From Opitutales bacterium (GTDB taxonomy: Bacteria > Verrucomicrobiota > Verrucomicrobiia > Opitutales > Seribacteraceae), in the NCBI GenBank assembly GCA_028101545.1, contig JAOHKZ010000008.1, forward strand, positions 1-64,000: a stretch of 64,000 bases of DNA, written 5' to 3'. Below the pieces are notes generated by a model. That model was not told where the DNA came from. It saw nothing but the letters and a program-made list of their open reading frames with translations, and made no database searches. This document shows, one piece after another, positions 4,899 to 34,942 of this stretch. A program made the translations under genes and the position numbers. The first letter of the stretch is position 1, and every line of letters begins with the position of its first letter.

Positions 4899-4923
4899 TT
4901 CCGTATCCAATTTACAAAAAGTC

Positions 4924-11473: not shown

Positions 11474-11567
11474 CGATCACAAAGACGCAAGTAAGGTTTA
11501 CCTCAAAGAACATCTGCTCATTTGTAAGCGTCATGCCAAGCTTTACATCATAAACATCTTGTAAACC

Positions 11568-13370: not shown

Positions 13371-13421
13371 TTTGTCTGTCAGAAAGAAGAAGTAATCATT
13401 AAGAAATCCAAAATTTAAATT

Positions 13422-14834: not shown

Positions 14835-14860
14835 AAAGACCATTCCTTAAAAGTACAAAA

Positions 14861-16369
14861 ATGGTTTTACGACTGTCTCTTATTTTACTGAGCCTTTTTT
14901 CAGCTCTTTCTTTTGTTCATGCAAATAAACCCAATATTGTCCTTATCCTGGCCGATGATGTCAGTGCCGATATGTTTTCGTGCTACGGACAAAAAGGATC
15001 TGCAAAAACACCAAATATTGATCGAATAGCAAAGGAAGGGGTTCAGTTTAAAACATGCTTTGCCCCAGCAATATGCGCACCTTCACGTGCTTTGTTTATG
15101 ACGGGTGTATATGCCAACCGTACGGGTGTTTTTCGAAATGACATGTGGGCATTTGATTCAAGGGGTAAATTGTTTACGAACCGACCCAGTTGGTCGAAGC
15201 TTTTACAAGATGGGGGATATGAAACTGCGATTGCTGGTAAGTGGCATTGTGGAAGTCGTGAACCGTGGGATGAGAATGTTGGTTTTGATGAGTATTGTTT
15301 ATGGGAGAGTCCGGAAAAGATTAAGTCTCATCTTGGGGTCAACCCGATTGCTTCCGGTTTGCGAAAGGATCTAGGACTTGAGGACTTGCGCTATTGGCAT
15401 CCATCAACCGTTGAGAATGGCAAATACCTTGAAGTGACGAGTGATGACTTCGGTCCCGATCAACGTTGTGATTTCCTTTTGGATTTCATGGAAAGAATGA
15501 CCAGGAAAGAGAAACATTTCATTGCCTATTGGCCCACGGTGATTCCTCACGGCCCTTATTCAACCACCCCTGATCATGGAAAACCACTGGATTTGGAATT
15601 GGAGAAGCCCGATTTTAAGGGACTGAGTAAAGAGGAAAAAGAAAAGGCAGTGGCAAAATATGAAAAAAAGCGTGCGCAACGATTTGCTCGACTAATTGAA
15701 TATATGGATAAACTTATCGGGAAACTCATAACAAAAGCGGAAGATTTAGGTATTTATGAGAATACCTACTTTATTTTTTGTGCGGATAACGGAACCGCTG
15801 TCACCGCAAAGGATCGTGGGGTGGAGAGAGGCGTTCATGTTCCGTATGTGGTGCGAGGTCCGGGAATTAAACCTCTAGGAATTACGAATGAGCTAACTGA
15901 CTTCTCTGATGTTGCTCCTACTCTGTTGGAAATGGCGGGCATTTCTAAACCTGATGATCTTTATTTCGATGGTACGAGCCAAGTTCCGTTTTTGACAGGT
16001 AAGACTAAGTCTCACCGCAAATGGATATATGCATACACCGGTTCGGTTCAGGTATTGAGAAGCAAGAAGTATTTGCTGGAGGCTAGGTCTCATTTGTTAG
16101 GCACACCGGAAGGTCGATTTTATTTTACCGGTAATTATCGTTTTGGTCGCGGATATGAACGAGCCGAAGGATTACCTAAACATGCCCCAACACTTTCTCT
16201 TTTCAAGAGAGTACTGGATTCGATGCCATCGCACCTTGAAAAAAATCATCCTTTTTGGGATTCGAAATACGGTAAACGTTGGATCCAAAATAATCCAAAT
16301 CTTGAAGAGCTTTCGAACAAGCAGCTTTATAACCACCCTGATTATTCACGATATGATGAATCCGATTAA
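14861..16369 (+). CDS. Secreted type I sulfatase (CAPSR)
   Basis: A 502-residue sulfatase. A signal peptide (about 1-21, ending VHA) leads into PNIVLILADDVSADMFSCYG and the formylglycine block APAICAPSRALFMTGVYANRTG (Cys72). The later motifs are AGKWHCGSRE, YWPTVIPHGPYS, FCADNGTAV and RGVHVPYVVRGPG. A Lys/Glu-rich helical insertion of roughly 40 residues (KGLSKEEKEKAVAKYEKK region) sits between the two halves of the core. It lies 26 bases after the previous sulfatase, and its 3' end overlaps the next gene's start by 14-17 bases, so translation of the two is probably coupled. The substrate is unknown. Confidence 0.94.
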   Translation: MVLRLSLILLSLFSALSFVHANKPNIVLILADDVSADMFSCYGQKGSAKTPNIDRIAKEGVQFKTCFAPAICAPSRALFMTGVYANRTGVFRNDMWAFDSRGKLFTNRPSWSKLLQDGGYETAIAGKWHCGSREPWDENVGFDEYCLWESPEKIKSHLGVNPIASGLRKDLGLEDLRYWHPSTVENGKYLEVTSDDFGPDQRCDFLLDFMERMTRKEKHFIAYWPTVIPHGPYSTTPDHGKPLDLELEKPDFKGLSKEEKEKAVAKYEKKRAQRFARLIEYMDKLIGKLITKAEDLGIYENTYFIFCADNGTAVTAKDRGVERGVHVPYVVRGPGIKPLGITNELTDFSDVAPTLLEMAGISKPDDLYFDGTSQVPFLTGKTKSHRKWIYAYTGSVQVLRSKKYLLEARSHLLGTPEGRFYFTGNYRFGRGYERAEGLPKHAPTLSLFKRVLDSMPSHLEKNHPFWDSKYGKRWIQNNPNLEELSNKQLYNHPDYSRYDESD

Positions 16370-17816
16370 ACTGACGCACACTTTACTAATCTGCCTTGCG
16401 ACTTGGTCTGCTGATGGCGAGACTTTGCCCAACATGGTGTTTCTGATGACGGATGACCAGGGTTGGGGGGATGTCGGATACAATGGCCATCCAAAGATCA
16501 AGACACCACACCTCGACGACATGGCAAAGTCCTGTCTGCGCTTCGATCGTTTCTATGCCGGTGCATCTGTCTGCAGTCCGACCCGAGCGTCCTGTATGAC
16601 GGGTCGCTGCAATTGGCGGCTAAGTATCAACGATCCCTCCCGTGCGGATGAGGAGCATTTACCGCAGGAAGAAATTACTTTACCAGAGGCTTTGAAGGAA
16701 AAAGGATATGCCACCGGCCACTTCGGTAAGTGGCACTTGGGTGGTTTCGATGAAAAAATGGCGAAAGGGCCAGTTCATGTGATGCCGCCATGGAAAGCAG
16801 GTTTTGAAGAGTGTTTTTCAACTTTCAATGTTCTAGTAACTCATGACCCGTATACCAAAATCGGTAAACATGGAATCGAGGGCTTGTATTGGCATAACGG
16901 CCGGAACATCCCGTTCGAGGAGGGGCAGAAGGATCCCACCTTGCGGGGTGACGACGCGGCCATCGTGATGAACAAAGCGATTCCTTTCATCCGTGAGCAG
17001 GCAAAGGCAAAGAAACCCTTTCTTGCCGTGATTTGGTTCCACAATGTGCACACCCCTCTGGGTAAGAACCCCGAGCTGATGAAGCAATACTCGGACTGTT
17101 CGGTAAAGGAGCAGATCTACTACAGCAACATCACCGCGGTGGACACCCAAGTGGGGGCCTTGCGTAAGGCACTTCGTGAGCTAGGCATAGCCGAAAATAC
17201 CATGGTCTGGTTTACCAGCGACAATGGCCCCAACCTGAAGGAAAAGAAAGATGTTATGCACGGAGAAGCTCAGGATGGAAAGTTTACATACACCCCATTA
17301 GGTTCGACCGGTGCGTATCGTGGATGGAAACGTTATCTTTACGAGGGAGGTATTCTTATGCCCGGCATTCTCGAGTGGCCCGCCCGGATCAGGACGCCAT
17401 TCTCCACCGACCTGCCCGCGGTTACCAGTGACTATTTCCCAACTTCTCTGGCTGCTGCTGGTATTCCTCTACCGGATGATCGGGAATATGATGGCATCAA
17501 TTTGTTACCTTTAATTGATGGAAAGATGAAAAAGCGCAAGGGGATCGGTTTTCATTGCAGGGGTATGGATGCCTGGATCGAGAAGAAATATAAAATCATT
17601 CGTATTTCCAGTAAAAAGGAACAGAAAAATCCATGGGAACTCTACGATCTCTTGAAAGATCCTTATGAAGAGAATGATTTAGCCAAAAAATTCCCAGCTG
17701 TGGTGGAAAGAATGAATCAGGAATTTATGGTTTGGGCGACCTCCGTTCAGGCAGATGAGCAAAAGGTCTTGGAAAAATATCATTTATCCAAAACGAAAAC
17801 GAAAAAATCAAAATGA
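16353..17816 (+). CDS. Secreted type I sulfatase (CSPTR)
   Basis: A 487-residue sulfatase starting at ATG 16353 (a second ATG follows at 16356). The frame is open far upstream into the previous gene, but the added residues are its out-of-frame shadow, while the chosen start gives a normal signal peptide (THTLLICLATWSADG). Motifs: MTDDQGWGDVGYNG, GASVCSPTRASCMTGR (Cys74), FGKWHLGGF, WFHNVHTPLG, FTSDNGPN and YLYEGGILMPGI. It overlaps the upstream sulfatase by 17 bases and its own TGA overlaps the next ATG (ATGA), so three sulfatases in a row are translationally linked. Codon use is patchy, with a C-rich block near 17100-17250. Confidence 0.94.
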   Translation: MMNPIKLTHTLLICLATWSADGETLPNMVFLMTDDQGWGDVGYNGHPKIKTPHLDDMAKSCLRFDRFYAGASVCSPTRASCMTGRCNWRLSINDPSRADEEHLPQEEITLPEALKEKGYATGHFGKWHLGGFDEKMAKGPVHVMPPWKAGFEECFSTFNVLVTHDPYTKIGKHGIEGLYWHNGRNIPFEEGQKDPTLRGDDAAIVMNKAIPFIREQAKAKKPFLAVIWFHNVHTPLGKNPELMKQYSDCSVKEQIYYSNITAVDTQVGALRKALRELGIAENTMVWFTSDNGPNLKEKKDVMHGEAQDGKFTYTPLGSTGAYRGWKRYLYEGGILMPGILEWPARIRTPFSTDLPAVTSDYFPTSLAAAGIPLPDDREYDGINLLPLIDGKMKKRKGIGFHCRGMDAWIEKKYKIIRISSKKEQKNPWELYDLLKDPYEENDLAKKFPAVVERMNQEFMVWATSVQADEQKVLEKYHLSKTKTKKSK

Positions 17817-19369
17817 TGACTAAGATTTATTCTCTACTTGTATTCTTCTCTTTGATCCTCTCCGTTGGTGCAAAAAAGAAACCTAATTTTCTTTTCATCA
17901 TTGTGGATGATCAGTCTCCACTTGATTTGAGGATATATAATTCCCGGTCAACTCTTGATACTCCAAATATCGAACGGTTGGCAAAGGAGGGAATGGTTTT
18001 TGATCGTGCCTTTCATATGGGTGCGTGGGTAGGTGGGGTTTGTACGCCTTCTCGCCATATGGTGATGTCCGGGAGGACGGTTTGGCATATTCCTGATAAA
18101 CCCGGTCGGGTAATGAATCCCCATGTGAACGATCCAAAGATGGTGCCTCCCCATTTGGCCCAATATAGTTTACCGGCGGTTTTCAATGCTGCGGGATACG
18201 ATACCATGCGTACCTGTAAGAATGGGAACAGTTTTGAGGCTGCCAATAAACTTTTCACTGTTCGATACGATGGTACCCGGCGTGGGGGAACGGACGAAAA
18301 GGGAAGTCACTGGCATGGGGAACAGGTCATGAATTACCTTAAGGAAAGGGAGCAATCCAAGGATACGGATCCGTTTCTAATTTATTATGGATTCAGTCAT
18401 CCGCATGATGTTCGAGATGGTAAACCGGAATTACTTAAAAAATATGGAGCCACCAATCATACGGACCGTAATCGTCTTCCCTCGGTACACCCGAAGCATC
18501 CAAGGCTTCCAGTTAATTGGCTACCCGCTCATCCATTTGACCATGGTCATACATCCGTTCGGGATGAGGTGGCGGTAAAGGGGGTTTGGCAAAACCGGGA
18601 TGAAGTCACCATTCGTAATGAAATGGGCCGTGAATATGCCTGTAGTGAAAATATTGATATTCAGGTAGGGAGAGTGCTGGATAAACTCGAGGAGATGGGA
18701 GAGTTGGAGAATACCTACATCATTTACACAGCGGATCATGGAATGGCTATTGGTCGGCATGGTTTGCAGGGAAAGCAAAACCTTTACGATCACACCTGGC
18801 GGGTACCCTTCATTGTCAAGGGACCAGGGATCAAATCGGGAAGTCGTGTGCCTGGTAATATTTATCTTTTGGACATGCTTGCCAGCCTTTGTGAGTTGTC
18901 AAATATTGAAGTCCCTGCAACATCCGAGGGCTTAAGTTTTATGCCTATATTGATGGGTAAGAAAGATCAGGTAAGAGAGACTGTTTATGGGGTTTATTGT
19001 GGAGGGGGGCGTCCGGGGATGCGTAGTGTTCAAAAGGGAGATTGGAAGTTGATAAAGTATGAGACTTCCAAAAACGGAGAGAAGCATACACAGCTTTTTA
19101 ATCTGAAGGATAATCCCATGGAATTTATTAAGGAACATCATAATCCCGATGTGATTGCATCGACTGGAGTAAAGCCCAAGAAGCATCAGATCAATTTAGC
19201 GGATTCCCCAAAGCATTCATCTAAATTAAAAGAGATGGAAGCCTTGTTATTGAAACAAATGAGGGAGCATGATGATCCTTATCGTTTTTGGAATCAGCCT
19301 ACTGATGGTTTGGTTGAACCAGTACTGAATGAAAAAATCGCTAAACCTGCTAAAAAAAAGAAGAATTAG
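17813..19369 (+). CDS. Secreted type I sulfatase (CTPSR)
   Basis: A 518-residue sulfatase whose ATG overlaps the previous stop (ATGA). A signal peptide (about 1-20) is followed by PNFLFIIVDDQSPLDLRIYN, the active-site block GVCTPSRHMVMSGRTVWH (Cys77), GFSHPHDVRDG, and YTADHGMAIGRHGLQGKQNLYDHTWRVPF. The TCKNGNSF-type segment replaces the usual GKWH motif, a pattern seen in a verrucomicrobial/lentisphaeral sulfatase subgroup. The C-terminus is Lys-rich (KPAKKKKN), as in several other sulfatases here. It ends the eight-sulfatase + strand series and is followed after 53 bases by an SGNH esterase. The substrate is unknown. Confidence 0.94.
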   Translation: MMTKIYSLLVFFSLILSVGAKKKPNFLFIIVDDQSPLDLRIYNSRSTLDTPNIERLAKEGMVFDRAFHMGAWVGGVCTPSRHMVMSGRTVWHIPDKPGRVMNPHVNDPKMVPPHLAQYSLPAVFNAAGYDTMRTCKNGNSFEAANKLFTVRYDGTRRGGTDEKGSHWHGEQVMNYLKEREQSKDTDPFLIYYGFSHPHDVRDGKPELLKKYGATNHTDRNRLPSVHPKHPRLPVNWLPAHPFDHGHTSVRDEVAVKGVWQNRDEVTIRNEMGREYACSENIDIQVGRVLDKLEEMGELENTYIIYTADHGMAIGRHGLQGKQNLYDHTWRVPFIVKGPGIKSGSRVPGNIYLLDMLASLCELSNIEVPATSEGLSFMPILMGKKDQVRETVYGVYCGGGRPGMRSVQKGDWKLIKYETSKNGEKHTQLFNLKDNPMEFIKEHHNPDVIASTGVKPKKHQINLADSPKHSSKLKEMEALLLKQMREHDDPYRFWNQPTDGLVEPVLNEKIAKPAKKKKN

Positions 19370-19422: not shown

Positions 19423-20661
19423 ATGAAAAAATTAACAATCATTACTCTATCTTTCTCGCTCTCCTGCTTTTTCCATTTAGTGACTCTGGCAAATGATAAT
19501 CCATTGAAAGTATTCATTCTCTGTGGACAGTCCAATATGGAAGGGCATGCCAAAATAAGCACATTTGAGGCGATGAAAGTGGATTCGGTTACGAAGCCTA
19601 TTTATAAGCAAATGGTCGATTCAAAAGGGAAGCCGATTACCTGTGATAATGTGTGGATTTCTTATTTTACCGGCGGGCGTGACAACATGGGAGAAGGGTT
19701 CGGTAAACTTACTGCCGGCTATGGTTCACGGCGGGTGCCTGCGGAGATGGGTGAAAAAATCGGGCCTGAATTTACTTTTGGAATTTATGCCCAGAAAGCT
19801 TTGAAAGAACCGATTCTAATTATCAAAACAGCATGGGGAGGAAAATCGATCCATACTGATTTTCGCCCTCCTTCAGCCGGTCCCTATGTCTTCAATGAAA
19901 ATGAACTGGAAAACTTCAAACGCCGGGGAAAGGATATTAAGGAAGTGAAGGCTGAAAAAGCTGAGCAAACCGGAAGATTTTATGGCCTGATGATGGACCA
20001 TGTGAAGAAGGTACTTGCGGATATCAAACGGGTTTATCCTCAATATAACGAAAAGAAAGGATATGAGGTTGCTGGGTTTGCCTGGTTTCAGGGGTGGAAT
20101 GATATGGTGGCGAGTGGAACATATCCGAACCGGGATAAGCCGGGGGGATATGATGCCTACACTGATTGCTTGGCTCATTTCATAAGGGATGCCAGGAAGG
20201 ATCTCAAAGCACCAAAGATGAAGTTTGTAATTGGAGTAATGGGAGTGGGTGGACCCTTGGACAAATACGCCAGTCCCCGTTATGTGCCCATCCACGGGAA
20301 CTTTCGCAATGCGATGGCTGCTCCAGCAGAGATGCCAGAGTTTAAAGGTAATGTATTTGCGGTGAGAACGGCTAAATTTTGGGATATGCGGTTGAAAGAA
20401 TTGGAGGATAAACAAACACAGGTCAAACAGATGGCAGGGTTCTTGAAAAGTAAGCATCAGGAACACGCGAATAAGGATGGCTCAATGTCAGCGGTAGATC
20501 AAAAAGAGTATCTTGAGAAGTACCGGAAAAAGTTGATTTCGGTAGAGGAAGAAGCCTATGCTCAAATCGCCCGTTCCAATGGGGGCTATCACTACTACGG
20601 GAGTGCCAAGACGATGGCCCAAATTGGGAAGGCATTTGCTGAAGCTTTAGTGGGGAAGTAA
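19423..20661 (+). CDS. Secreted SASA-family carbohydrate esterase (sialate O-acetylesterase-like)
   Basis: A 412-residue SGNH-type hydrolase. After the signal peptide (about 1-23, ending TLA) comes VFILCGQSNMEGHAK with the nucleophile Ser37 in GQSNM, then [26 protein letters not shown] and the block [10 protein letters not shown], and near the C-terminus NGGYHYYGSAKT with the probable catalytic His. This is the SASA (DUF303) family, whose members remove O-acetyl groups from sialic acid, xylan or other glycans. The length exceeds the core because of a helical insertion at about 320-385. A shorter paralogue sharing GQSNM, TAWGGKS and FRPPSAG is at 25005-25973. It probably de-acylates the same glycan the sulfatases work on. 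Confidence 0.85.
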   Translation: MKKLTIITLSFSLSCFFHLVTLANDNPLKVFILCGQSNMEGHAKISTFEAMKVDSVTKPIYKQMVDSKGKPITCDNVWISYFTGGRDNMGEGFGKLTAGYGSRRVPAEMGEKIGPEFTFGIYAQKALKEPILIIKTAWGGKSIHTDFRPPSAGPYVFNENELENFKRRGKDIKEVKAEKAEQTGRFYGLMMDHVKKVLADIKRVYPQYNEKKGYEVAGFAWFQGWNDMVASGTYPNRDKPGGYDAYTDCLAHFIRDARKDLKAPKMKFVIGVMGVGGPLDKYASPRYVPIHGNFRNAMAAPAEMPEFKGNVFAVRTAKFWDMRLKELEDKQTQVKQMAGFLKSKHQEHANKDGSMSAVDQKEYLEKYRKKLISVEEEAYAQIARSNGGYHYYGSAKTMAQIGKAFAEALVGK

Positions 20662-20707: not shown

Positions 20708-21634
20708 ATGAAATTTATTGATTCCCATACAGGTGGTGAACCAACGAGGGTAATCATTGAGGGAGGTCCAGATCTTGGTGATGGTGACTTACAAGAAAGG
20801 TTGGTGAATCTTAGAAATCATCACGATGACTTTCGTTCATCTGTTATCAATGAACCACGAGGGTGGGATGCCATGGTGGGTGCTTTGCTTTGTGAACCTC
20901 ATGATAAAACATGTGATGCCGGGGTAATTTTCTTTAATAATGTTGGCTACTTAGGGATGTGTGGCCATGGAACGATTGGTTTGGCGGTCACTCTGTATGA
21001 AATAGGAAGAGTAGGGATTGGTAATCTTAAGTTGGAAACCCCGGTCGGTGTGGTCGATGTAGAGCTGGAAAGTGCGAATCGAGTTTCAATCCGAAATGTT
21101 CCGAGCTATCGATATAAAAAGGGTGTGGATGTACCGGTAGATGGGTTTGGGACCGTTTCTGGAGATATCGCATGGGGTGGGAATTGGTTTTTTCTCATCG
21201 AGGAAAGCCCCGTTACCTTGAATAAATCTAATCTAAAGGAACTGACTGGTTTCTGCCTTAAAGTAAGAAGTTCGTTGGAGGAAAATCGTATCAGAGGAGA
21301 AGGGCAGGGCGAGATTGATCATATTGAATTGTCCGGTTCTTCTAATACAGCCGGATTGAATTCAAAGAACTTTGTGCTTTGCCCTGGAGGAGCATATGAT
21401 CGTTCTCCCTGTGGGACGGGTACAAGTGCTAAACTTGCATGTCTTGCAGCGGATGGAAAACTGGAACCGGGTGAAAACTGGTCGCAGGAAAGCATCATTG
21501 GAAGCGTGTTTGATGGATCCTATCAGTGGGTCGATAAATCAAGGATCTTGCCTACGATTACGGGTTCTGCATATCTCTCTTCACGAGGAGAACTTCTCTG
21601 GCAGGAAGGAGACCCTTTCGGTAAAGGCATTTAA
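20708..21634 (+). CDS. 4-hydroxyproline 2-epimerase (proline racemase family)
   Basis: A 308-residue cytoplasmic enzyme (no signal peptide) converting trans-4-hydroxy-L-proline to cis-4-hydroxy-D-proline, the first step of bacterial hydroxyproline use. It begins FIDSHTGGEPTRV and has both catalytic cysteines: Cys85 in MCGHGTIG and Cys235 in SPCGTGTSAKLACL. The pair of Cys distinguishes epimerases from the related trans-3-hydroxyproline dehydratases, in which the first Cys is replaced. GGAYDRSPCGTGTS fits the 4-hydroxyproline branch rather than proline racemase. The next gene, an FAD oxidoreductase, starts 12 bases downstream, and the deaminase follows, giving the canonical pathway order. Confidence is high from motifs plus context; kinetics on proline itself cannot be excluded. 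Confidence 0.9.
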   Translation: MKFIDSHTGGEPTRVIIEGGPDLGDGDLQERLVNLRNHHDDFRSSVINEPRGWDAMVGALLCEPHDKTCDAGVIFFNNVGYLGMCGHGTIGLAVTLYEIGRVGIGNLKLETPVGVVDVELESANRVSIRNVPSYRYKKGVDVPVDGFGTVSGDIAWGGNWFFLIEESPVTLNKSNLKELTGFCLKVRSSLEENRIRGEGQGEIDHIELSGSSNTAGLNSKNFVLCPGGAYDRSPCGTGTSAKLACLAADGKLEPGENWSQESIIGSVFDGSYQWVDKSRILPTITGSAYLSSRGELLWQEGDPFGKGI

Positions 21635-21646
21635 ATTAGCAATCAA

Positions 21647-22897
21647 TTGAGTAAGAATCAAAAAGTGGTGATTGCCGGTGCTGGAATTATCGGTATTGCA
21701 TGTGCACACTATTTAAATGAGGCCGGTTTTGAAGTCGTGATTTTTGATCGTGCTAAAGCAGGTGGAGCCTGTTCACGGGCGAATTGCGGATACATTTGTC
21801 CAAGCCATATTCCACCCCTTACGGAACCCGGGGCGATTGGTGTTGCCCTGAAGTCAGTCTTCAATCGAAATTCTCCCTTTCATCTGAAGTTCCGCCCGAG
21901 TCCTGCCCTTTGGCAATGGATGTGGCAGTTTGCCAAGCGTTGCACACATCAGCAGGTACTCGATTCAGGTCGACACCTACAGAGTATTCTTGATGCATCG
22001 ATGGAGGAGTATCATAGATTAATGAAACTATTTTCTTCCAATTGCGAATTGCAGGAGCGTGGCTTACTTTATGTATATGAATCCGAAAAAGGGCTCGATG
22101 CGTTTGCACAGACCGATCAGATGCTGGAAGAAAATTTTGGAGTCTCGGCAAAAAGATTGAATGGAGAGCAACTGGTCGAGATGGAACCTGGACTGAGAGA
22201 GGGACTTGCAGGTGCTTTTCATTATCCATCAGATACCTCCTTGAATCCAGAGTCGCTAAATAAATCTTGGGTTTCCGATCTAAAGCGTAGGGGGGTGGAA
22301 TTTATTGAAGAATGTGAACTCCAAAAGATTGAAAAACAGAATGGCCGGGTAATGCAAATAAAGACTTCAGCGGGCGAATTGGACGCTGATCATTTTGTTT
22401 TTTCTCTTGGTGCATGGAGCCCAAAATGGTCGGACGCATTGGAATGCAAATTGCCCATTGAGCCCGGCAAAGGGTATTCACTAACCATGAGTCGACCCGA
22501 GGGAGCACCGGTACATCCAATGCTTTTTCCGGAGAAAAAGATTGGAGTCTCTCCCTTTGAGAATGGTTTTCGGTTGGGCTCGATGATGGAATTTGTTGGT
22601 TATGATGAAACAATCCCGGACCACCGGTTAAAGTTACTGCGTGATTCTGCTAGACCATTTCTTCAAACTTCTGTTGATGGACCTGCTCAAGATACTTGGT
22701 ACGGTTGGCGTCCGATGACCTGGGATAGTTTGCCGATTGTAGGTCGGGTACCCGAACTGAAAAATGTTTTTTTGGCAACCGGGCATAATATGCTTGGACT
22801 TAGTCTCGCTCCCTCAACGGGTAGATTGATCAAAGAGATGATTTGTGGGGATGAAACTCATATTGATCCCTCTGCTTATTCTCCTCTTAGGTTCTAG
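21647..22897 (+). CDS. FAD-dependent D-hydroxyproline dehydrogenase (DAO family)
   Basis: A 416-residue FAD oxidoreductase, predicted to oxidise cis-4-hydroxy-D-proline to 1-pyrroline-4-hydroxy-2-carboxylate. The start is TTG 21647, giving VVIAGAGIIGIACAHYL with the dinucleotide-binding GxGxxG at 11-16. A GTG a few codons in would cut close to the first beta strand, so TTG is preferred. The acidic end of the Rossmann unit is EVVIFDR. The C-terminus has GWRPMTWDSLPIVGRVPEL and ATGHNMLGLSLAPSTGRL, typical of D-amino-acid dehydrogenases such as DadA. It sits directly between the epimerase (12-base gap) and the DapA-family deaminase (48-base gap). The role comes from family plus position; the electron acceptor is unknown. 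Confidence 0.87.
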   Translation: MSKNQKVVIAGAGIIGIACAHYLNEAGFEVVIFDRAKAGGACSRANCGYICPSHIPPLTEPGAIGVALKSVFNRNSPFHLKFRPSPALWQWMWQFAKRCTHQQVLDSGRHLQSILDASMEEYHRLMKLFSSNCELQERGLLYVYESEKGLDAFAQTDQMLEENFGVSAKRLNGEQLVEMEPGLREGLAGAFHYPSDTSLNPESLNKSWVSDLKRRGVEFIEECELQKIEKQNGRVMQIKTSAGELDADHFVFSLGAWSPKWSDALECKLPIEPGKGYSLTMSRPEGAPVHPMLFPEKKIGVSPFENGFRLGSMMEFVGYDETIPDHRLKLLRDSARPFLQTSVDGPAQDTWYGWRPMTWDSLPIVGRVPELKNVFLATGHNMLGLSLAPSTGRLIKEMICGDETHIDPSAYSPLRF

Positions 22898-22945
22898 TTT
22901 TTAAAATTGATCGTTCCCGATAATGAGTCGTAAAGTAATCACATT

Positions 22946-23893
22946 ATGACCGACTGCGCTCAAAATATTTTCCGGGGATGTATACCTGCTCTGATGACTC
23001 CCTGTTCCAATGATCGTAAACCCGATTATGATGCGTTGGTGAAAACCGCTGGGCATTTGGTGCAATCTGGAATGAACGGAGTTGTCTATTGTGGTTCAAT
23101 GGGTGACTGGCCATTACTTTCGGATATGCAGAGGCAGGAAGGAGTGACGCGTTTAGTGGAAGCGGGTATCTCCACCGTTGTGGGAACGGGTGCCCAAAAC
23201 CCGCAGGGTGCGGTATCTCATGCTGCACATGCTCGAGAAGTAGGAGCCGCCGGGTTGATGATTATCCCCAGAGTTCTTTCTCGCGGAATTTCCCCGATTG
23301 CACAGGAAGTCCATTTTTCATCTGTTCTTGAAGCGGGAGGAGATCTTCCTGCGGTGATTTATAATAGTCCATACTACGGATTTGAAACCAAGGCGGATTT
23401 GTTTTTTAAATTGCAAAAAAAATACTCCAACTTGGTGGGTTTTAAGGAATTTGGCGGTGCAGATTCTCTCACTTATGCAGCTGAACACATTACCAGCGTA
23501 GATCAGCGACTGGCCCTGATGGTTGGAGTCGATACCCAGGTCTTTCACGGATTTGTAAATTGTGGAGCGGTTGGAGCAATCACCGGAGTGGGGAATGCCC
23601 TGCCTAAACAGGTTTTGCGATTAATTGAACTTTGCCGGGAAGCGGCCGAGGGGAATGTGGAGTCACGCCGGCTGGCTATTGAGTTGGATTCAGCGATGTC
23701 AGTGCTTTCGAAATTTGATGAGGGGCCTGATTTGGTTTTATTCTATAAGGAACTTATGGTTCTTGAAGGCTTTGAGGAATATGCACTTCAGCTCAATCCA
23801 TCGGATGAATTGAGTCCGTCCCAGCGACAGTTTTTACATACGCAATGGGACTTATTTAAGAACTGGTGGAAGAATTGGTCAGGATCAAAATAA
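22946..23893 (+). CDS. 1-pyrroline-4-hydroxy-2-carboxylate deaminase (DapA/NAL family)
   Basis: A 315-residue class I aldolase-like protein with a TIM barrel. It has the Schiff-base lysine Lys167 in [10 protein letters not shown], the catalytic tyrosine Tyr139 in [10 protein letters not shown], and [11 protein letters not shown] at the substrate carboxylate loop. This GSMGDWPLL variant and the hydroxyproline gene neighbourhood point to the deaminase that turns 1-pyrroline-4-hydroxy-2-carboxylate into 2-oxoglutarate semialdehyde and ammonia, rather than to dihydrodipicolinate synthase. The product needs a semialdehyde dehydrogenase to reach 2-oxoglutarate; none is encoded in this window. The ATG at 22946 is the only good start. 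The stop is 11 bases before the next gene's ATG. Confidence 0.88.
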
Positions 23894-23904
23894 ATTTACA
23901 GACA

Positions 23905-25008
23905 ATGAAAATTTCTAAAATTACCGTTTGGCAAGTGGACCTGCCTCTGCATGAAGGCGATTACAAATGGTCCGGAGGAAAGTCGGTAGAAACTTTTGAT
24001 TCCACCATTGTCGGAGTGGAGACGGATGAGGGAGTTATTGGTTATGGTGAAGTCTGTCCTCTCGGACCGGTTTACTTGGCCTCCTATGCAAAAGGCGTGC
24101 GGGTGGGGGTTGAGGAACTGGGCCCGAGTCTTCTTGGGGAGAACCCTTTACACTTAGAAAAACTAAATCGTCTTATGGATCAGGCGATGAAAGGACATCC
24201 TTATGTGAAATCGGCCATCGATGTCGCGTGTTGGGATATTCTTGGGAAAGTCTCGGGTTTACCAGTCAGTTCATTACTGGGTGGTGCCTATGGAGAGAAC
24301 TTTGTTCTTTATCGTGCAATTTCCCAGGAAAGTCCGGATGAAATGGCAAAAAAGATTGCAGGGTATCGGGAGGAAGGATACAGGCGCTTTCAGTTAAAGG
24401 TGGGAGGTGACCCGGATACGGATATCAAAAGAATAAGCCAGGCATCCGCTCAGTTGCAACCCGGAGATAAACTGGTGGCTGATGCCAACACTGGCTGGCT
24501 TAAGCATGAGGCAATGCGCGTAGTGGAGGCAGTGAGAGATATCGATGTTTATATCGAGCAACCCTGCTTACGATATGAGGACTGCCTGTCGGTTCGGAAG
24601 CATACGAATCTTCCCTTTGTTTTAGATGAAGTGATTGATGGAATGCCTGAAATCCTAAAGGCTTCCCATGATCTGGCCATGGATGTGGTTAACATCAAGA
24701 TCAGTAAATTTGGAGGTTTAACAAGGGCCAAGCAGGCAAGAGATCTATGTGTGTCTCTTGGCGTTGCGATGACTTTGGAAGATACCTGGGGCGGAGATAT
24801 TGTAACCTCGGCAATTGCTCATCTTGCCCACAGTACACCGACAGATTTTTTGTTCACGGCTACAGATTTTAACAGTTATGTTACCCAGCCTCTAGCCAAT
24901 GGTGCTCCGCAGCGGATAAATGGACGAATGGCTTCATCCATGGCACCAGGACTAGGTATCGAGCCCATGATGGATGTGCTGGGTGATCCTGAATTTGTGA
25001 TTTCATGA
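23905..25008 (+). CDS. cis-3-hydroxy-L-proline dehydratase-like enolase superfamily enzyme
   Basis: A 367-residue mandelate racemase/muconate lactonizing-type protein starting at ATG 23905; the frame is open 13 codons upstream into the deaminase gene but has no better start. The N-terminus [20 protein letters not shown] closely matches my recollection of cis-L-3-hydroxyproline dehydratase. Active-site elements: Lys165 in FQLKVGG, the metal ligands Asp193 (VADANTGW), Glu218 (YIEQP) and Asp241 (VLDE), and Lys265 in NIKISKFGG. The enzyme would convert cis-3-hydroxy-L-proline to 1-pyrroline-2-carboxylate. A related possibility is hydroxyproline-betaine epimerase. Its stop overlaps the next gene's ATG (ATGA), tying it to the following SASA esterase. 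Family certain, substrate likely. Confidence 0.82.
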
Positions 25009-25973
25009 GAGTACAGCCTGTCTTTTGTCTTTTAGTTTTGCTGGGCATGCTTCAACTAAGTGCTAAAGAAACGGACAGTAATATATTTCATGTGTTTTTA
25101 TTAGCTGGTCAGTCCAATATGCAAGGGCAGGGGGTTGTGGATATGGATCATCCTAAATTTTACAACGGTGGGAAGGGTACCCTGGTTCGAATTATAGAAC
25201 ATACGAAGAAACCCAGTCTATTTAACCACTTGCGGGATAGTGAGGGTCGATGGGTTGAGCGGGAGGATGCTTTTATTCGATATAAAAATAAGCAGGGAGT
25301 AATGGCTGGGGGGGTCGGCATCGGGTTCACCGGATATGGAAGTATGAATAGTCGTCATCATATTGGACCTGAGCTTCAGATCGGGCATCGACTTGGTAAT
25401 TATTTTAAAGAACCTGTTCTTCTGATCAAGACTGCGTGGGGAGGAAAGAGTTTATATAAAGATTTTCGCCCCCCTTCCGCCGGCGGAGAGCCGGGAGAGT
25501 ATTACCAAAAAATGTTGGTCGAAGTTAAGGAAGCCCTCGATCATTACAGGGATGAATTTCCCGCCCTGCAAAACCGTATGCCGAAATGGGGAGGATTTAT
25601 TTGGTTTCAGGGTTGGAATGATATGTTTGATCAGGATGCCTTGGCTGGTTACGAGAACAACCTAGTCCATTTGATCAAGGATTTACGGGTCCATTTTAAA
25701 CAGCCTAATCTACCCGTTGTTGTGGGTGAACTGGGGAACATGGGCGAAGATGCAGGTGATAAGATGAAGGCGATTAGGATGGCTCAACGGAGAGCCTGCG
25801 AGCGAAGAGAATGGAAGGGCACAGTCTCCTTTGTGAAAACTACTTCATTTGCCCGTCCGAAGGAAGAATCGCCCAATGTCGGACATGGACACCATTGGTT
25901 CGGAAATGCGGAAAGCTATTTTTTAATCGGGGATGCCCTGGGTAAGAGAATGGTTAGTTTGCTAGGGAAATAA
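25005..25973 (+). CDS. Secreted SASA-family carbohydrate esterase (short paralogue)
   Basis: A 322-residue SGNH hydrolase starting at the ATG that overlaps the dehydratase stop by four bases. A signal peptide (about 1-20, ending LSA) precedes [14 protein letters not shown] (Ser37), then [50 protein letters not shown] and [19 protein letters not shown] with the probable catalytic His. It is a paralogue of the enzyme at 19423-20661 but lacks that protein's C-terminal insertion. Translational coupling of an exported esterase to a cytoplasmic hydroxyproline enzyme is unusual, and it is direct evidence that amino-acid use and glycan de-acylation are expressed together. Confidence 0.85.
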
Positions 25974-27073: not shown

Positions 27074-29668
27074 TTATTTTCTTGTGACCCAGACTGGCGA
27101 GGACCACGCCATGTTTCCGTCTCTTTGAATCACCCGGACATAATAGCGGTTTTCCCCGTCGAGCATCTTTGGATCTGAGAAGGTTTTTTCAAAAACTTTT
27201 CCTTCGAATTCGTTGAAGTGCTTCCAATCCTTTTCGTTACGGACAATGGTGATTCTTTTGAAATCGGATGTTCCGTCAACTTTGACCCAAAAATTGGGTG
27301 CTTTTTCGGTATTTATGAAGGAACCCAAAGGCTTTTCATTGCAGGTGAAATTAAGGTAGATTTTGTCGGTGGCCGCAATAGTGCGTCGGTTATCCATCCC
27401 TTCAATGATTCCTTCCCTAGTGAAATCCTTACAGTAAACACCGCCATAGCTGGCATGCTGGGAAATATGATCGGAACTGGCAAAGACCCCAAGGTTATGA
27501 CCTTCGCTCAATGCTGTTTGATAAGTACCATTCGCATATTTCCCAAAATCTACGATGGGCACGGATGGTGAACTAACTACCCGACCAGTTGGATTTAAGT
27601 GAGTGTTTGGACTAAATCCAACGGATGGTTGCGGTGCCCCTGCACCCTCGTAAGAAACCCGGGCTCCCTGAAAGATTTCAACCACATTTTCCGAACTGTA
27701 ATCAAATCTTTCATATTTCTTCCAGTCTGTTCCCATACCAGTTGCACCTGTGTGGCTCAGCGCCGCGACTGGTTTACCATATTTTTTGAGCAGATCCCAA
27801 AGTTCATAGGGGGAGATTTCTGCGGCTCCTTTGGGATCAACGGGCAGGCTCTTTTGCCATGGTGAATTGAGATAGAGTTCACGCTTGATGTAAACAACGG
27901 GACCCCCTCGCTGAGCGAAAACAATATTACGATGTCCCCATGGCCATCTCTGTTCTCTTTCATATACATATACGGTATTAAACTCTCCAGGGCTGTGTAG
28001 GGCATCATGCATGCGCTGATTATGCCACCATTCGTACGGGTGATAAATCTTTCCAATATCAGTGTGGTCGGATGTCCCCAGAAAGTCAATTTTACCGAGA
28101 TCATAGGCATATCTAAAATGATCGACGATACATCCATCGAAACCTGTCCTGCAGTTGGAAACATCGGTGTGACGATGAACATCCCCCCAGTAAAGACCGT
28201 AGGTTTCTCCTTCCACCTTCCATTTATGCCGGTCATACGCCGGACGTTCCGGTGTCTTGTGTGAATGAGGAAGGTCGGATGCCTTGCCCACCGATAAAGG
28301 CTTGGGGGGCAGGGCGTCGGGTAAAGATTTGGAAGAGGGTAGGTTAGCCACCATTATTCTGACAGTTTGATGTGCTTTATGTGGACGTTCATCTGATGGC
28401 CAGCAAATGCGTATGTCTCCTTTACTATGTGGAGGGAGAAAAGAAACGGATCGGTCCTGTCCGTAACTGCTTGATGGAAGCCTTCTCCTTGAACTCCATG
28501 TCTTGTTTTCCTGGCGATAGCAAGTCACAGCGATTCTCCAAAGTGCGGAATTAAAATAGCGGTAGGCCACCCAGGGATTACCATCCTTACCAACGCCAAC
28601 CATCGGCCGGTTTACCGGGAGTCCAGCCTCTCCTGCTGGTCCCAAAGGGATTTCAGTAAATTTCTCGGAATTAATTCCAAACTTTCCGAACATAATTCTT
28701 TTTTGGGCATTAATTCCGGTTTCATTGCCGTGTCCACGATAATCCAATCCATGCTTTTCTTTTCCCCGTTCTGCAGTAATCCAGAATCCATCTCGTGCTG
28801 GGGTGGCCGCAATCGATGCTCTGGCTTCATACTTCGAGCTGTGTCCGATCGGGTATTCGGTGACATTACCATTCTCTTCTACCTTTGCTAGATAAATGTT
28901 GAATTCATTACCACGCGAACTGTCATATGCAATCCAGGCATTCCCTTGTTTGTCGAAAGCAATACTTGGTGCCCAGTCTCCTCCTTGTTTTGTGGAAACC
29001 GGAATTTCTTGTGACCATTTTCCGTTTCCTGGGTCAAAGTAGCGTGCGTAGACATCTGCTTCTCCGGCCCTCATCGATTGCCAAGTTGCCCAGACCCGTC
29101 CTTTCGAATCAGTACCGGCATCGACGAATGCTTCCGCTGCCTTAGAATTGGCAAGAGTTTTCGTTCGGCCAAATAATGTCTGATTTTTTCCACGCGTCCA
29201 TGATCTTGCCATAAGATCGACCGTGGTATCTTTCTGAGTACTTCCCCAAAATACCCACACTGTGCCTTGGCCATCAATTGTAATGGCCGGTTGATGAAGA
29301 ATTCCTTTTGCGAAAAGCCCTGAAAGTCTAACCAACCCATCATCCGTTTCCTTTGAAAGTACCAAGCGATCCTCTATTCCATCCCAAATAAGATGGGTAA
29401 TTAGGGCATGGCCATCTTTATCGACTGTCGCATCGGGCAGATCGTATTGAAGATCATCCTTAGCAAGTTTTTGGAGATCACCTGAAAGTGTTATGGCAGT
29501 ATTAAGAAAGCGAACCTGTTTTTTATTAAAAAATTTGGTTTTTGCTTTCGTTTTGGCTGGTTGCTTAACAGTTGTCTTAGGTTCTGTTTTTTCAATTTTC
29601 TTTTGTGCATTTATATTGAAACAAATGGACAGGGAAAGTAACGCTGAAAGGATGTGGGTCTTGATCAT
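27074..29668 (-). CDS. Secreted beta-propeller + DUF3604 (PHP-like) protein
   Basis: An 864-residue protein. A signal peptide (about 1-22, ending INA) is followed by a Lys/Thr/Pro-rich linker and an N-terminal propeller (about 60-460) with BNR/sialidase-like repeats such as QPAITIDGQGTVWVFWGS, KGRVWATWQSMRAG and APSIAFDKQGNAWIAYDS. From about 490 it becomes a DUF3604 domain: YWGDVHRHTDVSNCRTGFDG, FLGTSDHTDIGK, AALSHTG and FASSDHISQHASYGG. The clustered His/Asp motifs match a PHP-like metal-dependent hydrolase centre. Members are found beside sulfatases and glycosidases in marine bacteria, but their reaction is unknown to me. It is divergent from the ogt gene across a 111-base gap and is followed by the TolB-like gene. 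Confidence 0.82.
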   Translation of the reverse strand: MIKTHILSALLSLSICFNINAQKKIEKTEPKTTVKQPAKTKAKTKFFNKKQVRFLNTAITLSGDLQKLAKDDLQYDLPDATVDKDGHALITHLIWDGIEDRLVLSKETDDGLVRLSGLFAKGILHQPAITIDGQGTVWVFWGSTQKDTTVDLMARSWTRGKNQTLFGRTKTLANSKAAEAFVDAGTDSKGRVWATWQSMRAGEADVYARYFDPGNGKWSQEIPVSTKQGGDWAPSIAFDKQGNAWIAYDSSRGNEFNIYLAKVEENGNVTEYPIGHSSKYEARASIAATPARDGFWITAERGKEKHGLDYRGHGNETGINAQKRIMFGKFGINSEKFTEIPLGPAGEAGLPVNRPMVGVGKDGNPWVAYRYFNSALWRIAVTCYRQENKTWSSRRRLPSSSYGQDRSVSFLPPHSKGDIRICWPSDERPHKAHQTVRIMVANLPSSKSLPDALPPKPLSVGKASDLPHSHKTPERPAYDRHKWKVEGETYGLYWGDVHRHTDVSNCRTGFDGCIVDHFRYAYDLGKIDFLGTSDHTDIGKIYHPYEWWHNQRMHDALHSPGEFNTVYVYEREQRWPWGHRNIVFAQRGGPVVYIKRELYLNSPWQKSLPVDPKGAAEISPYELWDLLKKYGKPVAALSHTGATGMGTDWKKYERFDYSSENVVEIFQGARVSYEGAGAPQPSVGFSPNTHLNPTGRVVSSPSVPIVDFGKYANGTYQTALSEGHNLGVFASSDHISQHASYGGVYCKDFTREGIIEGMDNRRTIAATDKIYLNFTCNEKPLGSFINTEKAPNFWVKVDGTSDFKRITIVRNEKDWKHFNEFEGKVFEKTFSDPKMLDGENRYYVRVIQRDGNMAWSSPVWVTRK

Positions 29669-29779
29669 TACACTATAAGAAAACCACTGGGAATTTAGGT
29701 CAATGTGTATTACAAGAATAGTGAATTAAATTTAATCGACTGACCCTCTATTTTTAAATGGCATAATTAATTTTTAAAA

Positions 29780-30094
29780 TTGAAACATGAATCATCAAGG
29801 TCCTTTGAACAGGATTGTTATAAGCTCTTACTCAAAATCCCTGAAGGTAAGGTTACCACTTACAAGGAAATCGCTCACGCATTGGGTGAAAAGGGATATC
29901 GTGCTGTGGGACGGGCAATGAATCGAAATCCAAATCTTATTGATGTTCCCTGCCATCGAGTAGTCAAAAGCAACGGCGAAGTTGGGGGCTATGCCACAGG
30001 TTCGTGCAGGAAGTTAGAGTTACTAAGACAAGAGGGAGTTTATGTCAGTGAGGATGGGCAGGTAGATCTTTCCAAATATCGTTATGTTTTTTAG
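29780..30094 (+). CDS. ogt: Methylated-DNA--protein-cysteine methyltransferase, single domain
   Basis: A 104-residue protein consisting only of the DNA-binding/active-site domain of O6-alkylguanine-DNA alkyltransferase. It has TTYKEIAHALG, the winged-helix segment RAVGRAMNRNPN with the arginine finger, and the acceptor Cys58 in VPCHRVV. Cysteine rather than tryptophan at this position argues for true alkyl transfer and against an ATL protein. The frame opens at TTG 29780; the nearby ATG at 29786 is in another frame. It lacks the N-terminal domain of full-length Ogt. Its 3' end overlaps the convergent sulfatase gene by four bases. It looks like a housekeeping repair gene unrelated to the glycan genes. 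Confidence 0.85.
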   Translation: MKHESSRSFEQDCYKLLLKIPEGKVTTYKEIAHALGEKGYRAVGRAMNRNPNLIDVPCHRVVKSNGEVGGYATGSCRKLELLRQEGVYVSEDGQVDLSKYRYVF

Positions 30095-31953
30095 GGCTGG
30101 TTTAAGATGCGGACCTTGTAGCGATTTACAATATCCTTTAGAAGTCCTTTCTTGGGTAGCTTATTTTCAGGAATATTGGAAAGTATGGAAAAGCTAGCCT
30201 GATCCATCCAGTCTAAGACATTGGCAAGCATCTTATTTTCAGGATTTTGTAGGATTTCTTTCAGCATCCATTGCTTTGCAAAATTTTCTGACCCCGCTTT
30301 GAAAATTGCCCAAGCAGCCAGTGCGGGGATTTCATCGTGGTCATCGAGTACTTTCTTTAAATTGGGGATGGCGGGTTTAGCTGTTTTTTCTAGGAGAAGT
30401 AAACCCACGACTGACCAATATCGGATCACCGGGTCATCATCAGATAAATTTTTGGTGAATGTTTTCAGGTGCTTCTTTTTTCGTTCCAGTGCAAAGTTTG
30501 CATAATCGAGGTATTTTGCGAGTGGATATAGTTTGGGGTCCCGAACAAAAGCATAGACCGTTGTTTTCTTTTCCTTGATCATTCGATTTCTCATTTCTTC
30601 GGGCATTAAACCCGAGTCAAAATATTTCAACTGTTGCCTTCGGAGTTCTTTCTTCAGTTCCTTGATTTTGGACTGGTGCAGTGGGTCGTCGATTTGGTTA
30701 TCGATATTGTGGAAGTCTTTGAAGTTGTCATAAAATTCCTCAGATGGTCTGGGTCTGAAAAAACGACCAGTTACTGCATCGGTTTTTTCCGCCTGATGAT
30801 GTCTTTCCCATGCCCCGGTTGCTTTCATGTTGTGCATGTAAGCCAGATATTGGCCGTTGGGAGCAAAGGGTGCGTAGTTCTTATGATAAGCGAATTGTTC
30901 GTCACGCATCACCCGTACATTGTCAAACCGTTCATCCGCCCGTTCACGCCACGAGAAATGATAGCGGGATTCAGGTTCGGTATCAGGACCGAGAAATATT
31001 CTTCCCTGAAAATTTTCTGTCACTTTCGCCCCAGTTAGACTTAACCAAGTCTTGGGCATATCAATAAAACTTACAATTCTGTCAATGGTGGAACCAGGCT
31101 TTTTCCCTTCTGGGTAGAGATGTTTCCACTTTTCAGGGATTCGCACAATCAGGGGACAATGGATTCCGCTGGAATATAGAAATCGTTTGCTGCGGGCAAG
31201 AACACCTCCGTGGTCCGAGTTGTAGACAATAATGGTGTCATCATATAATTTATCATTCTTCAGATTCTCGATCGCTTGACCGACCAATGCATCCATCTTG
31301 GATATTGCACTGGCATATTTGGCATAAGTGTTCCGCATTTCAGGCAGATCCGGATGGTAGGGTGCCAGTATCATTTTCTGGGGATCGATTGATTCGTCGT
31401 TATGGTCTCCAAATGCTCTGGATTCATGGCTTTCTCCAATGTTGTAGACTGTGAAAAAGGGCTGATCTTTCTCCCGTTTTTTCCATGTGTCCGCATAATC
31501 CTTCTCTGAGTAGTTCCAAAATGATTTAGGGTTACGACCATTGGGTCCTCGGAGGTTGTAGTCTGTTTTTGAGCAGTTACTGGTGAAGTAACCTGCTTCT
31601 TGGAGGAGTTCGTTGTAGAATTTAATCGATTCCGGGATTTCAAAACCGCTACGCATGGGTTGTGTTCCATTTGAAATAGAGTGCATGCCGGTAATCCAGG
31701 AGGAACGGGTAGGGGCGCAGACGGCACCATTGTCAAAACAGTAAAGGTAACGAAATCCTTCCTTTGCCAGTTGATCAATATTTGGAGTTTGGGCGTTTTT
31801 GCTATCGTAGCAACCGACCCACTCAATGCTGTTATCCTCGCTGGTAATCCAGAGAATGTTGGGCTTTATAACTTTTCCTATTAAGGGGAGCGTGCAAGAT
31901 ACAAAAAATGCCAGAAATGCAATTTTGTTTAGAAGGCGGGTCTTTGTAGTCAT
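30091..31953 (-). CDS. Secreted sulfatase with C-terminal HEAT repeats (CAPTR)
   Basis: A 620-residue protein, the last gene of the eight-gene - strand operon, starting 6 bases after the preceding frameshifted sulfatase. A signal sequence (about 1-27) leads to PNILWITSEDNSIEWVGCYD, the active-site block NGAVCAPTRSSWITGMHS (Cys79), TSNCSKTDYNLRG, YNIGESHESRA and YNSDHGGVLARSKRF. After about residue 480 it carries HEAT-like repeats (DDPVIRYWSVVGLLLLEK, IPALAAWAIFKAGSENF), as does the sulfatase at 11568. It belongs to the same N-sulfatase-like group but has the canonical CxPxR. Its stop overlaps the convergent ogt gene, so the operon terminator must lie inside or beyond ogt. Confidence 0.92.
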   Translation of the reverse strand: MTTKTRLLNKIAFLAFFVSCTLPLIGKVIKPNILWITSEDNSIEWVGCYDSKNAQTPNIDQLAKEGFRYLYCFDNGAVCAPTRSSWITGMHSISNGTQPMRSGFEIPESIKFYNELLQEAGYFTSNCSKTDYNLRGPNGRNPKSFWNYSEKDYADTWKKREKDQPFFTVYNIGESHESRAFGDHNDESIDPQKMILAPYHPDLPEMRNTYAKYASAISKMDALVGQAIENLKNDKLYDDTIIVYNSDHGGVLARSKRFLYSSGIHCPLIVRIPEKWKHLYPEGKKPGSTIDRIVSFIDMPKTWLSLTGAKVTENFQGRIFLGPDTEPESRYHFSWRERADERFDNVRVMRDEQFAYHKNYAPFAPNGQYLAYMHNMKATGAWERHHQAEKTDAVTGRFFRPRPSEEFYDNFKDFHNIDNQIDDPLHQSKIKELKKELRRQQLKYFDSGLMPEEMRNRMIKEKKTTVYAFVRDPKLYPLAKYLDYANFALERKKKHLKTFTKNLSDDDPVIRYWSVVGLLLLEKTAKPAIPNLKKVLDDHDEIPALAAWAIFKAGSENFAKQWMLKEILQNPENKMLANVLDWMDQASFSILSNIPENKLPKKGLLKDIVNRYKVRILNQP

Positions 31954-31959
31954 GATAAT

Positions 31960-34941: not shown

Positions 34942-34942
34942 T

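Follow-up and report, generated by a model that had tools for sequence, protein, structure and literature searches.

A putative hydroxyproline catabolic cassette embedded in a sulfatase/esterase island in one genus of Opitutales-type Verrucomicrobiota

Introduction

Three published systems are among those closest to the locus described here. Labrenzia grows on cis-3-hydroxy-L-proline (passages in PMC4113996), and the product of its LhpJ enzyme is pyrroline-2-carboxylate, which is probably then taken up by a reductase (passages in PMC5144071). An in silico study of Latescibacteria (2015) joined algal polysaccharides, sulfatases, and hydroxyproline-rich glycoproteins in a single proposal (passages in PMC4454575), and a collagen cluster is described for Colwellia (passages in PMC7883544). 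Here, we analyze positions 20,708 to 25,008 of a 64,000-nucleotide stretch of DNA (hereafter, the window) from an Opitutales bacterium (assembly GCA_028101545.1, 2.21 Mb, 57% complete; contig JAOHKZ010000008.1, called C77 below), where four genes form a putative cassette for the catabolism of hydroxyproline (Hyp). We consider it likely that this is an ordinary Lhp-type Hyp operon that, in a single genus of Opitutales-type Verrucomicrobiota, was joined to a c3LHypD-type (cis-3-hydroxyproline dehydratase-like) enolase gene and came to lie inside a sulfatase/esterase island; there, it is present or absent by species and its parts recombine.

Gene Content and Layout of the Cassette

Pfam and NCBIfam profiles bear out the gene content proposed in a first-pass annotation of the window: all four cassette genes and both flanking SASA-type esterase genes are present, in one order and on the + strand. 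The cassette consists of a 4-hydroxyproline 2-epimerase (4HypE; 20708..21634; PF05544, Pro_racemase, 317.8 bits); an FAD-dependent D-amino-acid, probably cis-4-hydroxy-D-proline, dehydrogenase (DAO; 21647..22897; PF01266, 221.6 bits); a DapA-type deaminase (DHDPS; 22946..23893; PF00701, 99.8 bits); and the c3LHypD-type enolase (23905..25008; NF043002, 605.5 bits, above the cut-off of 500). SASA1 (19423..20661; PF03629, 54 bits) precedes it and SASA2 (25005..25973; PF03629, 90.6 bits) follows. Upstream, also on the + strand, stand six consecutive sulfatase genes (10037..19369; starts 10037, 11568, 13422, 14861, 16143, and 17813), each with PF00884. Two further PF00884 genes lie among other genes at 893-2269 and 4885-6462, so that the eight sulfatases said to precede the cassette directly do exist, but only six of them are consecutive.

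The MCGHG and SPCGTGTS motifs of 4HypE align to PDB 2azp, its best solved relative (375.9 bits), and with them both of the cysteines that the annotation had ascribed to the epimerase. The top solved relatives of DHDPS (4mpq, 5czj, and 2hmc) score 423–430 bits, the next only 79 bits; we take 5czj to be the pyrroline-4-hydroxy-2-carboxylate deaminase of this pathway. The best solved relative of the enolase is 4mgg (513 bits), presumably the Labrenzia enzyme. Solved relatives of DAO are all distant (best 93.5 bits), and its family and position beside 4HypE fit a dehydrogenase. The enolase most likely starts at ATG 23905 and not at GTG 23866, because the longer form aligns to the start of the NF043002 model only from its residue 14 on.

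Judged by these families, the cassette would epimerize trans-4-hydroxy-L-proline to cis-4-hydroxy-D-proline, oxidize this to pyrroline-4-hydroxy-2-carboxylate, and deaminate the latter to alpha-ketoglutarate semialdehyde. An unlinked homologue of alpha-ketoglutarate semialdehyde dehydrogenase (KGSADH) would then yield alpha-ketoglutarate; this final-step enzyme is probably a 519-residue ALDH homologue encoded on a separate contig, C24, with 3v4c (456 bits) and 1eyy (442 bits) as best solved relatives. Through the enolase, a 3-hydroxylated proline would have its own way into the pathway.

The region from the sulfatase gene at 10037 to the end of SASA2 at 25973 is co-directional and tightly spaced, with successive gaps of 94, 51, 26, −227, −4, 53, 46, 12, 48, 11, and −4 bases; the value of −227 arises because the start of ORF 16143 was set mechanically. 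The last gap is an ATGA overlap of c3LHypD and SASA2, which, as annotated, can be read directly at 25005-25008, and coordinates give the same 4-base overlap in two other species of the genus, G010 and G013. Terminator-like sites on the + strand of this region fall within genes and not between them, and both promoter-like sites (14, against 24.9 in shuffled sequence) and terminator-like sites (9, against 17.5) are rarer than in shuffles. A single long transcript over the sulfatases, the SASA genes, and the cassette is thus possible. With a GC content of 0.451–0.476 for the four cassette genes and 0.45 for the window, composition gave no support to the cassette as recent foreign DNA, and that idea was dropped.

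Conservation and Loss within the Genus

The genus sample comprises 27 genomes, the window's own (G000) included. The cassette lies within a sulfatase/esterase island in five of them: on one contig each in G000, G010, and G018, and pieced together from two contigs in G006 and G013. The G010 contig stops just past SASA1, which leaves the sulfatase before SASA1 out of view. In G006, one contig carries SULF8, SASA1, and the start of 4HypE, and the other the end of a SASA1 followed by 4HypE, DAO, and DHDPS. In G013, SULF8 and SASA1 lie on one contig, and the other runs from within DAO through DHDPS, c3LHypD, SASA2, an FKBP gene, the gene for an 864-residue protein, and two sulfatases, the junction falling outside both contigs. 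A 3.2-kb contig of G009 holds DAO, DHDPS, and c3LHypD, with the flanks beyond the contig.

In other species, the arrangement is missing. On a 68-kb contig of G022, both the cassette and SASA2 are absent, and SASA1 (88% identical) runs directly into FKBP; upstream stand five sulfatases 80–94% identical to the window's and a sixth with only 28% identity to its best match, and downstream a fragment of the 864-residue protein gene, opposing sulfatases (61–83%), and an SSF symporter gene (87%). Similarly, SASA1 adjoins SASA2 with no cassette between them in G016, G019, and G023, where some genes are longer fusions or are cut by contig ends. G014, which shares 98% rpoB identity with G000, has a different DHDPS-4HypE-DAO set (59–69% identical), with a sulfatase 2.0 kb off. 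Loss of the linkage in close relatives, which the first-pass annotation held would speak against its proposal, is therefore seen in part: G022 keeps the island without cassette or SASA2 and three genomes have the SASA pair without the cassette, yet five of the 27 show the embedding.

The proposal in question was that the whole region is a dedicated locus for one sulfated, acylated Hyp-rich glycoprotein, whose glycan the sulfatases and esterases would strip and whose hydroxyproline the cassette would burn. Co-directional genes separated by 11 to 94 bases or overlapping, intragenic terminator-like sites no commoner than in shuffles, and the embedding in five genomes are consistent with it. So is the co-occurrence of SASA1 and Hyp genes, which are found together in 8 of the 27 genomes, singly in 2 and 2, and not at all in 15 (Fisher p 0.0007), SASA1 being counted at ~75% identity or more and partial genes included (SASA1 of G019 and G023, c3LHypD of G019); when counting is restricted to the 15 genomes with a completeness of 80% or more, the figures are 4/1/1/9 (p 0.017). 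However, the assumptions of the Fisher test are broken by relatedness, physical linkage, and incomplete assemblies, to all of which it is blind, and independent pairs on an rpoB tree (1 concordant, 3 without difference) are too few to support the co-occurrence. As G022 moreover keeps the island without the cassette, we hold a dedicated locus to be unlikely.

Positional coincidence has also to be weighed: the interval between SASA1 and the 864-residue protein gene may be a place where genes turn over, in a sulfatase-rich genome, with the cassette functionally untied to its surroundings. The content of the interval does vary, being cassette and SASA2 in G000 and G013, cassette, SASA2, and a gene pair with an MBOAT member in G010, cassette and the MBOAT pair in G018, and neither in G022. 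The assembly holds ~103 sulfatase genes in 2.2 Mb, and the share of its sequence no more than 2 kb from such a gene is 16%, rising to 27% at 5 kb, both figures being upper bounds; sulfatase adjacency alone is accordingly weak evidence, and conservation in sister species the stronger part. For the relatives, sulfatase numbers are provisional candidate counts, with 22 scored in each genome. Coincidence also agrees with the scatter of cassette-bearing species on the rpoB tree, where they do not form one clade (3 changes; shuffled mean 3.3), but it accounts poorly for the recurrence of the 4-base c3LHypD/SASA2 overlap in three species and for a cassette order that is maintained although the parts recombine. 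We regard it as possible but doubtful, and prefer an Hyp operon that was placed in the island and is present or absent by species.

Mosaicism of the Cassette

The nearest relative of the window changes within the cassette. Upstream of ~22.7 kb, the DNA of G000 is 82–95% identical to G010 and 59–75% to G006/G009; from ~22.7 kb to the end of c3LHypD, it is 67–77% identical to G010 and 83–94% to G009/G006. The switch is sharp and falls near the end of the DAO gene, for which reason we read the cassette as a recombinant that arose by exchange between species. Gene order was kept despite this recombination. The rpoB tree used here covers 21 of the 27 genus genomes (G005, G008, G022, and G024 gave no match, and the split sequences of G017 and G019 were omitted), with 11 of its 18 inner branches open and G013 on a long branch.

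Hydroxyproline Loci across the Phylum

Matches to 4HypE, weak ones included, occur in 20 of 92 relatives and in 47 of 387 phylum genomes, and c3LHypD exceeds its cut-off in 14 of the 92. We compared the best-scoring 30 phylum 4HypE loci (without G000, G059, and G074) and 17 loci of nearer relatives, G059 and G074 among them, within 6 kb. In the 30 loci, DAO is near 4HypE in 25, DHDPS in 22, and KGSADH in 22, the last as homologues 47–55% identical to the ALDH of contig C24; 4HypE-DAO-DHDPS-KGSADH operons are common among the 4HypE loci of this phylum. DHDPS is 69% identical to the window's in L274, L293, and L294 and 27–31% in the remaining 19 where it was matched. A sulfatase is found in at least 1 of the 30 loci, and SASA and c3LHypD in none. 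Among the 17 nearer loci, two of which are island cassettes, a sulfatase is found in at least 6 and c3LHypD in 2. These sulfatase counts are lower bounds, made with 7 of the window's 11 sulfatases as queries and with several of the 17 contigs short; for instance, a SULF9-like gene lies near the Hyp genes of L074.

Sulfatase–4HypE linkage as a general rule was rejected on the phylum count, which also speaks against a dedicated locus. The embedding of a Hyp cassette in a sulfatase/esterase island is borne out in five of the 27 genus genomes, and G014 also has its own Hyp set close to a sulfatase, but it is not general among the 30 phylum loci compared.

The neighborhoods of c3LHypD were examined in the best 80 of 574 confirmed loci, those nearest to the window, short contigs included. 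Within 6 kb of the enolase gene, DHDPS occurs in 4, 4HypE in 2, an OCD reductase in 5, and a window-type sulfatase in 18. Enolases of this type therefore do not usually belong to a Hyp operon, and the one in the cassette seems to have been recruited there in the window's genus. In other genera of the family (L063, L064, and L065), c3LHypD recurs opposite a second enolase (24–26% identical) and a gene for a protein of 339–363 residues. In Roseibacillus/Akkermansiaceae (L099, L100, L102, and L103), c3LHypD has neighbors of matching sizes; the one locus scanned, L102, has genes for a solute-binding protein and an ABC permease upstream and Orn/DAP/Arg decarboxylase-type and glutamine-synthetase-type genes downstream. 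This second kind of neighborhood may point to what the enolase usually does.

The c3LHypD-Type Enolase and Its Possible Substrate

Lys165, Asp193, Glu218, Asp241, and Lys265 are invariant in an alignment of 10 enolase sequences. The catalytic set of c3LHypD comprises two Lys, two Asp, and one Glu (passages in PMC5144071), and the matching of K165, K265, D193, E218, and D241 to that set is our own assignment. A loop reads WSGGKSV in the window; in the best 80 of 574 loci, WSGGKS is found in 69 and Lys at that place in all 80. The same loop is WSNGNF/Y in the Roseibium and Ruegeria operon enolases and in 4mgg, and WSGGNV in Gemmatirosa. This loop criterion is ours and not a published one.

A different substrate can be imagined. 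If the enolase acted on 3,4-dihydroxyproline, it would pass pyrroline-4-hydroxy-2-carboxylate to the adjoining deaminase, the enolase–deaminase pair would be self-sufficient, and the island might be a locus for diatom-wall glycoprotein. The compound is reported to occur in diatom walls (passages in PMC4557024 and PMC5501833) as well as in silaffin peptides, and an unrelated c3LHyp dehydratase converts one dihydroxyproline isomer to pyrroline-4S-hydroxy-2-carboxylate, ~300-fold more slowly than it handles cis-3-hydroxyproline (passages in PMC5144071). In G016, DHDPS and c3LHypD form a pair flanked on both sides by opposite-strand genes, with 4HypE-DAO on another contig, and G023 has, where a contig ends, a match to DHDPS at a distance of 28 bases from c3LHypD; only the first of these pairs is free-standing. 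Since LhpJ adjoins the deaminase in Roseibium and Ruegeria too, the two genes may habitually be neighbors in Hyp operons. In 14 genomes, no OCD-type pyrroline-2-carboxylate reductase exceeded the cut-off and only 3 weak matches lay below it, several of these genomes being incomplete and the other reductase type not searched for, whereas an OCD-type reductase directly follows c3LHypD in two Poribacteria loci. Stereochemistry raises a further difficulty: trans-4-hydroxy-L-proline should yield 4R pyrroline-4-hydroxy-2-carboxylate, whereas the measured product is 4S, and the deaminase may refuse it. No route for the catabolism of dihydroxyproline is known to us, and a search for papers on dihydroxyproline and diatoms turned up none whose title concerns its breakdown. 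We consider this substrate quite improbable. If it were true, the 4-hydroxyproline and dihydroxyproline routes would converge on one intermediate. The dehydratase–deaminase pair is a testable candidate for the fate of diatom-wall dihydroxyproline.

Sulfatases, Esterases, and the Opposing Half of the Island

The C/S-x-P/A-x-R motif is present in seven of the eight upstream sulfatases, all but 11568-13370. The one sulfatase compared with solved structures, 17813, has distant relatives only, so no glycan can be named, and for SASA1 no relative among solved structures reaches E ≤ 1e-5. When 40 of the 50 window ORFs of at least 150 residues were scanned with Pfam, neither a collagenase nor any glycosidase that we know to act on Hyp-linked arabinose or galactan came up, the whole genome not having been searched for these; for a locus dedicated to one Hyp-rich glycoprotein, this is a further point against.

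The opposing half of the island (27074..36670, − strand) encodes the 864-residue protein, sulfatases at 30091, 32438, and 33379 (PF00884), and the SSF symporter (34943-36670; PF00474), which is retained in the cassette-free G022. The 864-residue protein (27074-29668) has no Pfam match at E ≤ 0.001; its gene has sulfatase neighbors in several of the genus genomes, and only a fragment with stops is left of it in G022. The sulfatase ORF at 32438-33382 has 314 residues in the window and 464–536 in G013, G016, G018, and G022, with a 170-residue ORF adjoining (31960-33382); a frameshift or an assembly error is possible. After the cassette in G018 or SASA2 in G010, genes for an MBOAT O-acyltransferase and a 324–330-residue protein without a Pfam match follow (L061:8163-10645 and L059:9317-11781), placing genes of acyl transfer beside acyl esterases.

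Comparison with Known Systems

Several observations weigh against an ordinary Lhp-type operon. The NF052296 score of 4HypE, 445.5 bits, is 4.5 under the cut-off of 450, and DAO reaches no NCBIfam cut-off (NF001933, 264.5 bits against 383). KGSADH is absent from the cassette, and the NCBIfam KGSADH models do not claim the C24 homologue (126 bits against 750). No transporter is found among the cassette genes and hence no linked hydroxyproline transporter. Elsewhere, c3LHypD lies mostly apart from Hyp genes, three of its four DHDPS neighbors in the best 80 of 574 loci belonging to the window's genus, and the enolase loop is unlike that of the Roseibium and Ruegeria operon enolases. We nevertheless favor such an operon as the probable identity of the cassette.

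The same four gene types occur on plasmids of Roseibium porphyridii and Ruegeria sp. AD91A, in the order DHDPS-4HypE-FAD oxidoreductase-c3LHypD. The window proteins are 65% (DHDPS), 56% (4HypE), 28% (DAO and the FAD oxidoreductase), and 62% (c3LHypD) identical to those of Roseibium, and a KGSADH homologue lies near the Ruegeria operon too (46% and 57% identity, in two pieces). The window cassette thus resembles the Lhp cluster with LhpJ (Roseibium, Ruegeria, and Labrenzia aggregata, the last from passages in PMC5144071) in having 4HypE, an FAD dehydrogenase, a deaminase, and c3LHypD on one strand. It differs in gene order, in its weakly similar DAO, in its enolase loop, in its setting within a sulfatase/esterase island, and in lacking a second proline-racemase gene, a transporter, a GntR regulator, and KGSADH. 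With the 4HypE-DAO-DHDPS-KGSADH operons of Verrucomicrobiota, it shares the epimerase, dehydrogenase, and deaminase steps and the logic of the pathway, whereas its KGSADH is unlinked and c3LHypD is added.

The first-pass annotation knew of no described system joining these modules. No description of a linked sulfatase–hydroxyproline locus was found among the open-licence papers listed, nor any paper there on hydroxyproline and sulfatases in Verrucomicrobia/Verrucomicrobiota; for Planctomycetes, one such paper, a soil review, was listed. As an idea, however, the claim was too strong, in view of the four-gene set in marine Alphaproteobacteria and two further precedents. The Latescibacteria proposal likewise combines sulfatases with an attack on Hyp-rich algal glycoproteins; it is a genome-wide inventory and not a linked locus, and its available passages deal with Hyp-linked glycans and peptidases and mention no Hyp operon (PMC4454575). 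The Colwellia collagen cluster, in the passages describing it (PMC7883544), has 4HypE, a dehydrogenase, and a deaminase beside polymer-releasing enzymes, with an M9 collagenase and peptidases where the window has sulfatases and esterases.

That the cassette and the sulfatases draw on a shared substrate pool, such as algal detritus with sulfated glycan and Hyp-bearing protein, is a plausible, unproven hypothesis and, as an idea, not wholly new. If the two were co-regulated, these bacteria would draw on one algal polymer twice, for its sulfated glycan and for its protein, and Hyp protein would supply nitrogen in a way that is rarely taken into account for degraders of polysaccharides. Compared by its genes with the systems above, the cassette is of a known kind, and its embedding is a variant at the level of the genus, present in some species, absent from others, and subject to recombination. 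The locus documents a familiar operon of amino-acid catabolism that was shuffled, as one module, among genes for glycans.

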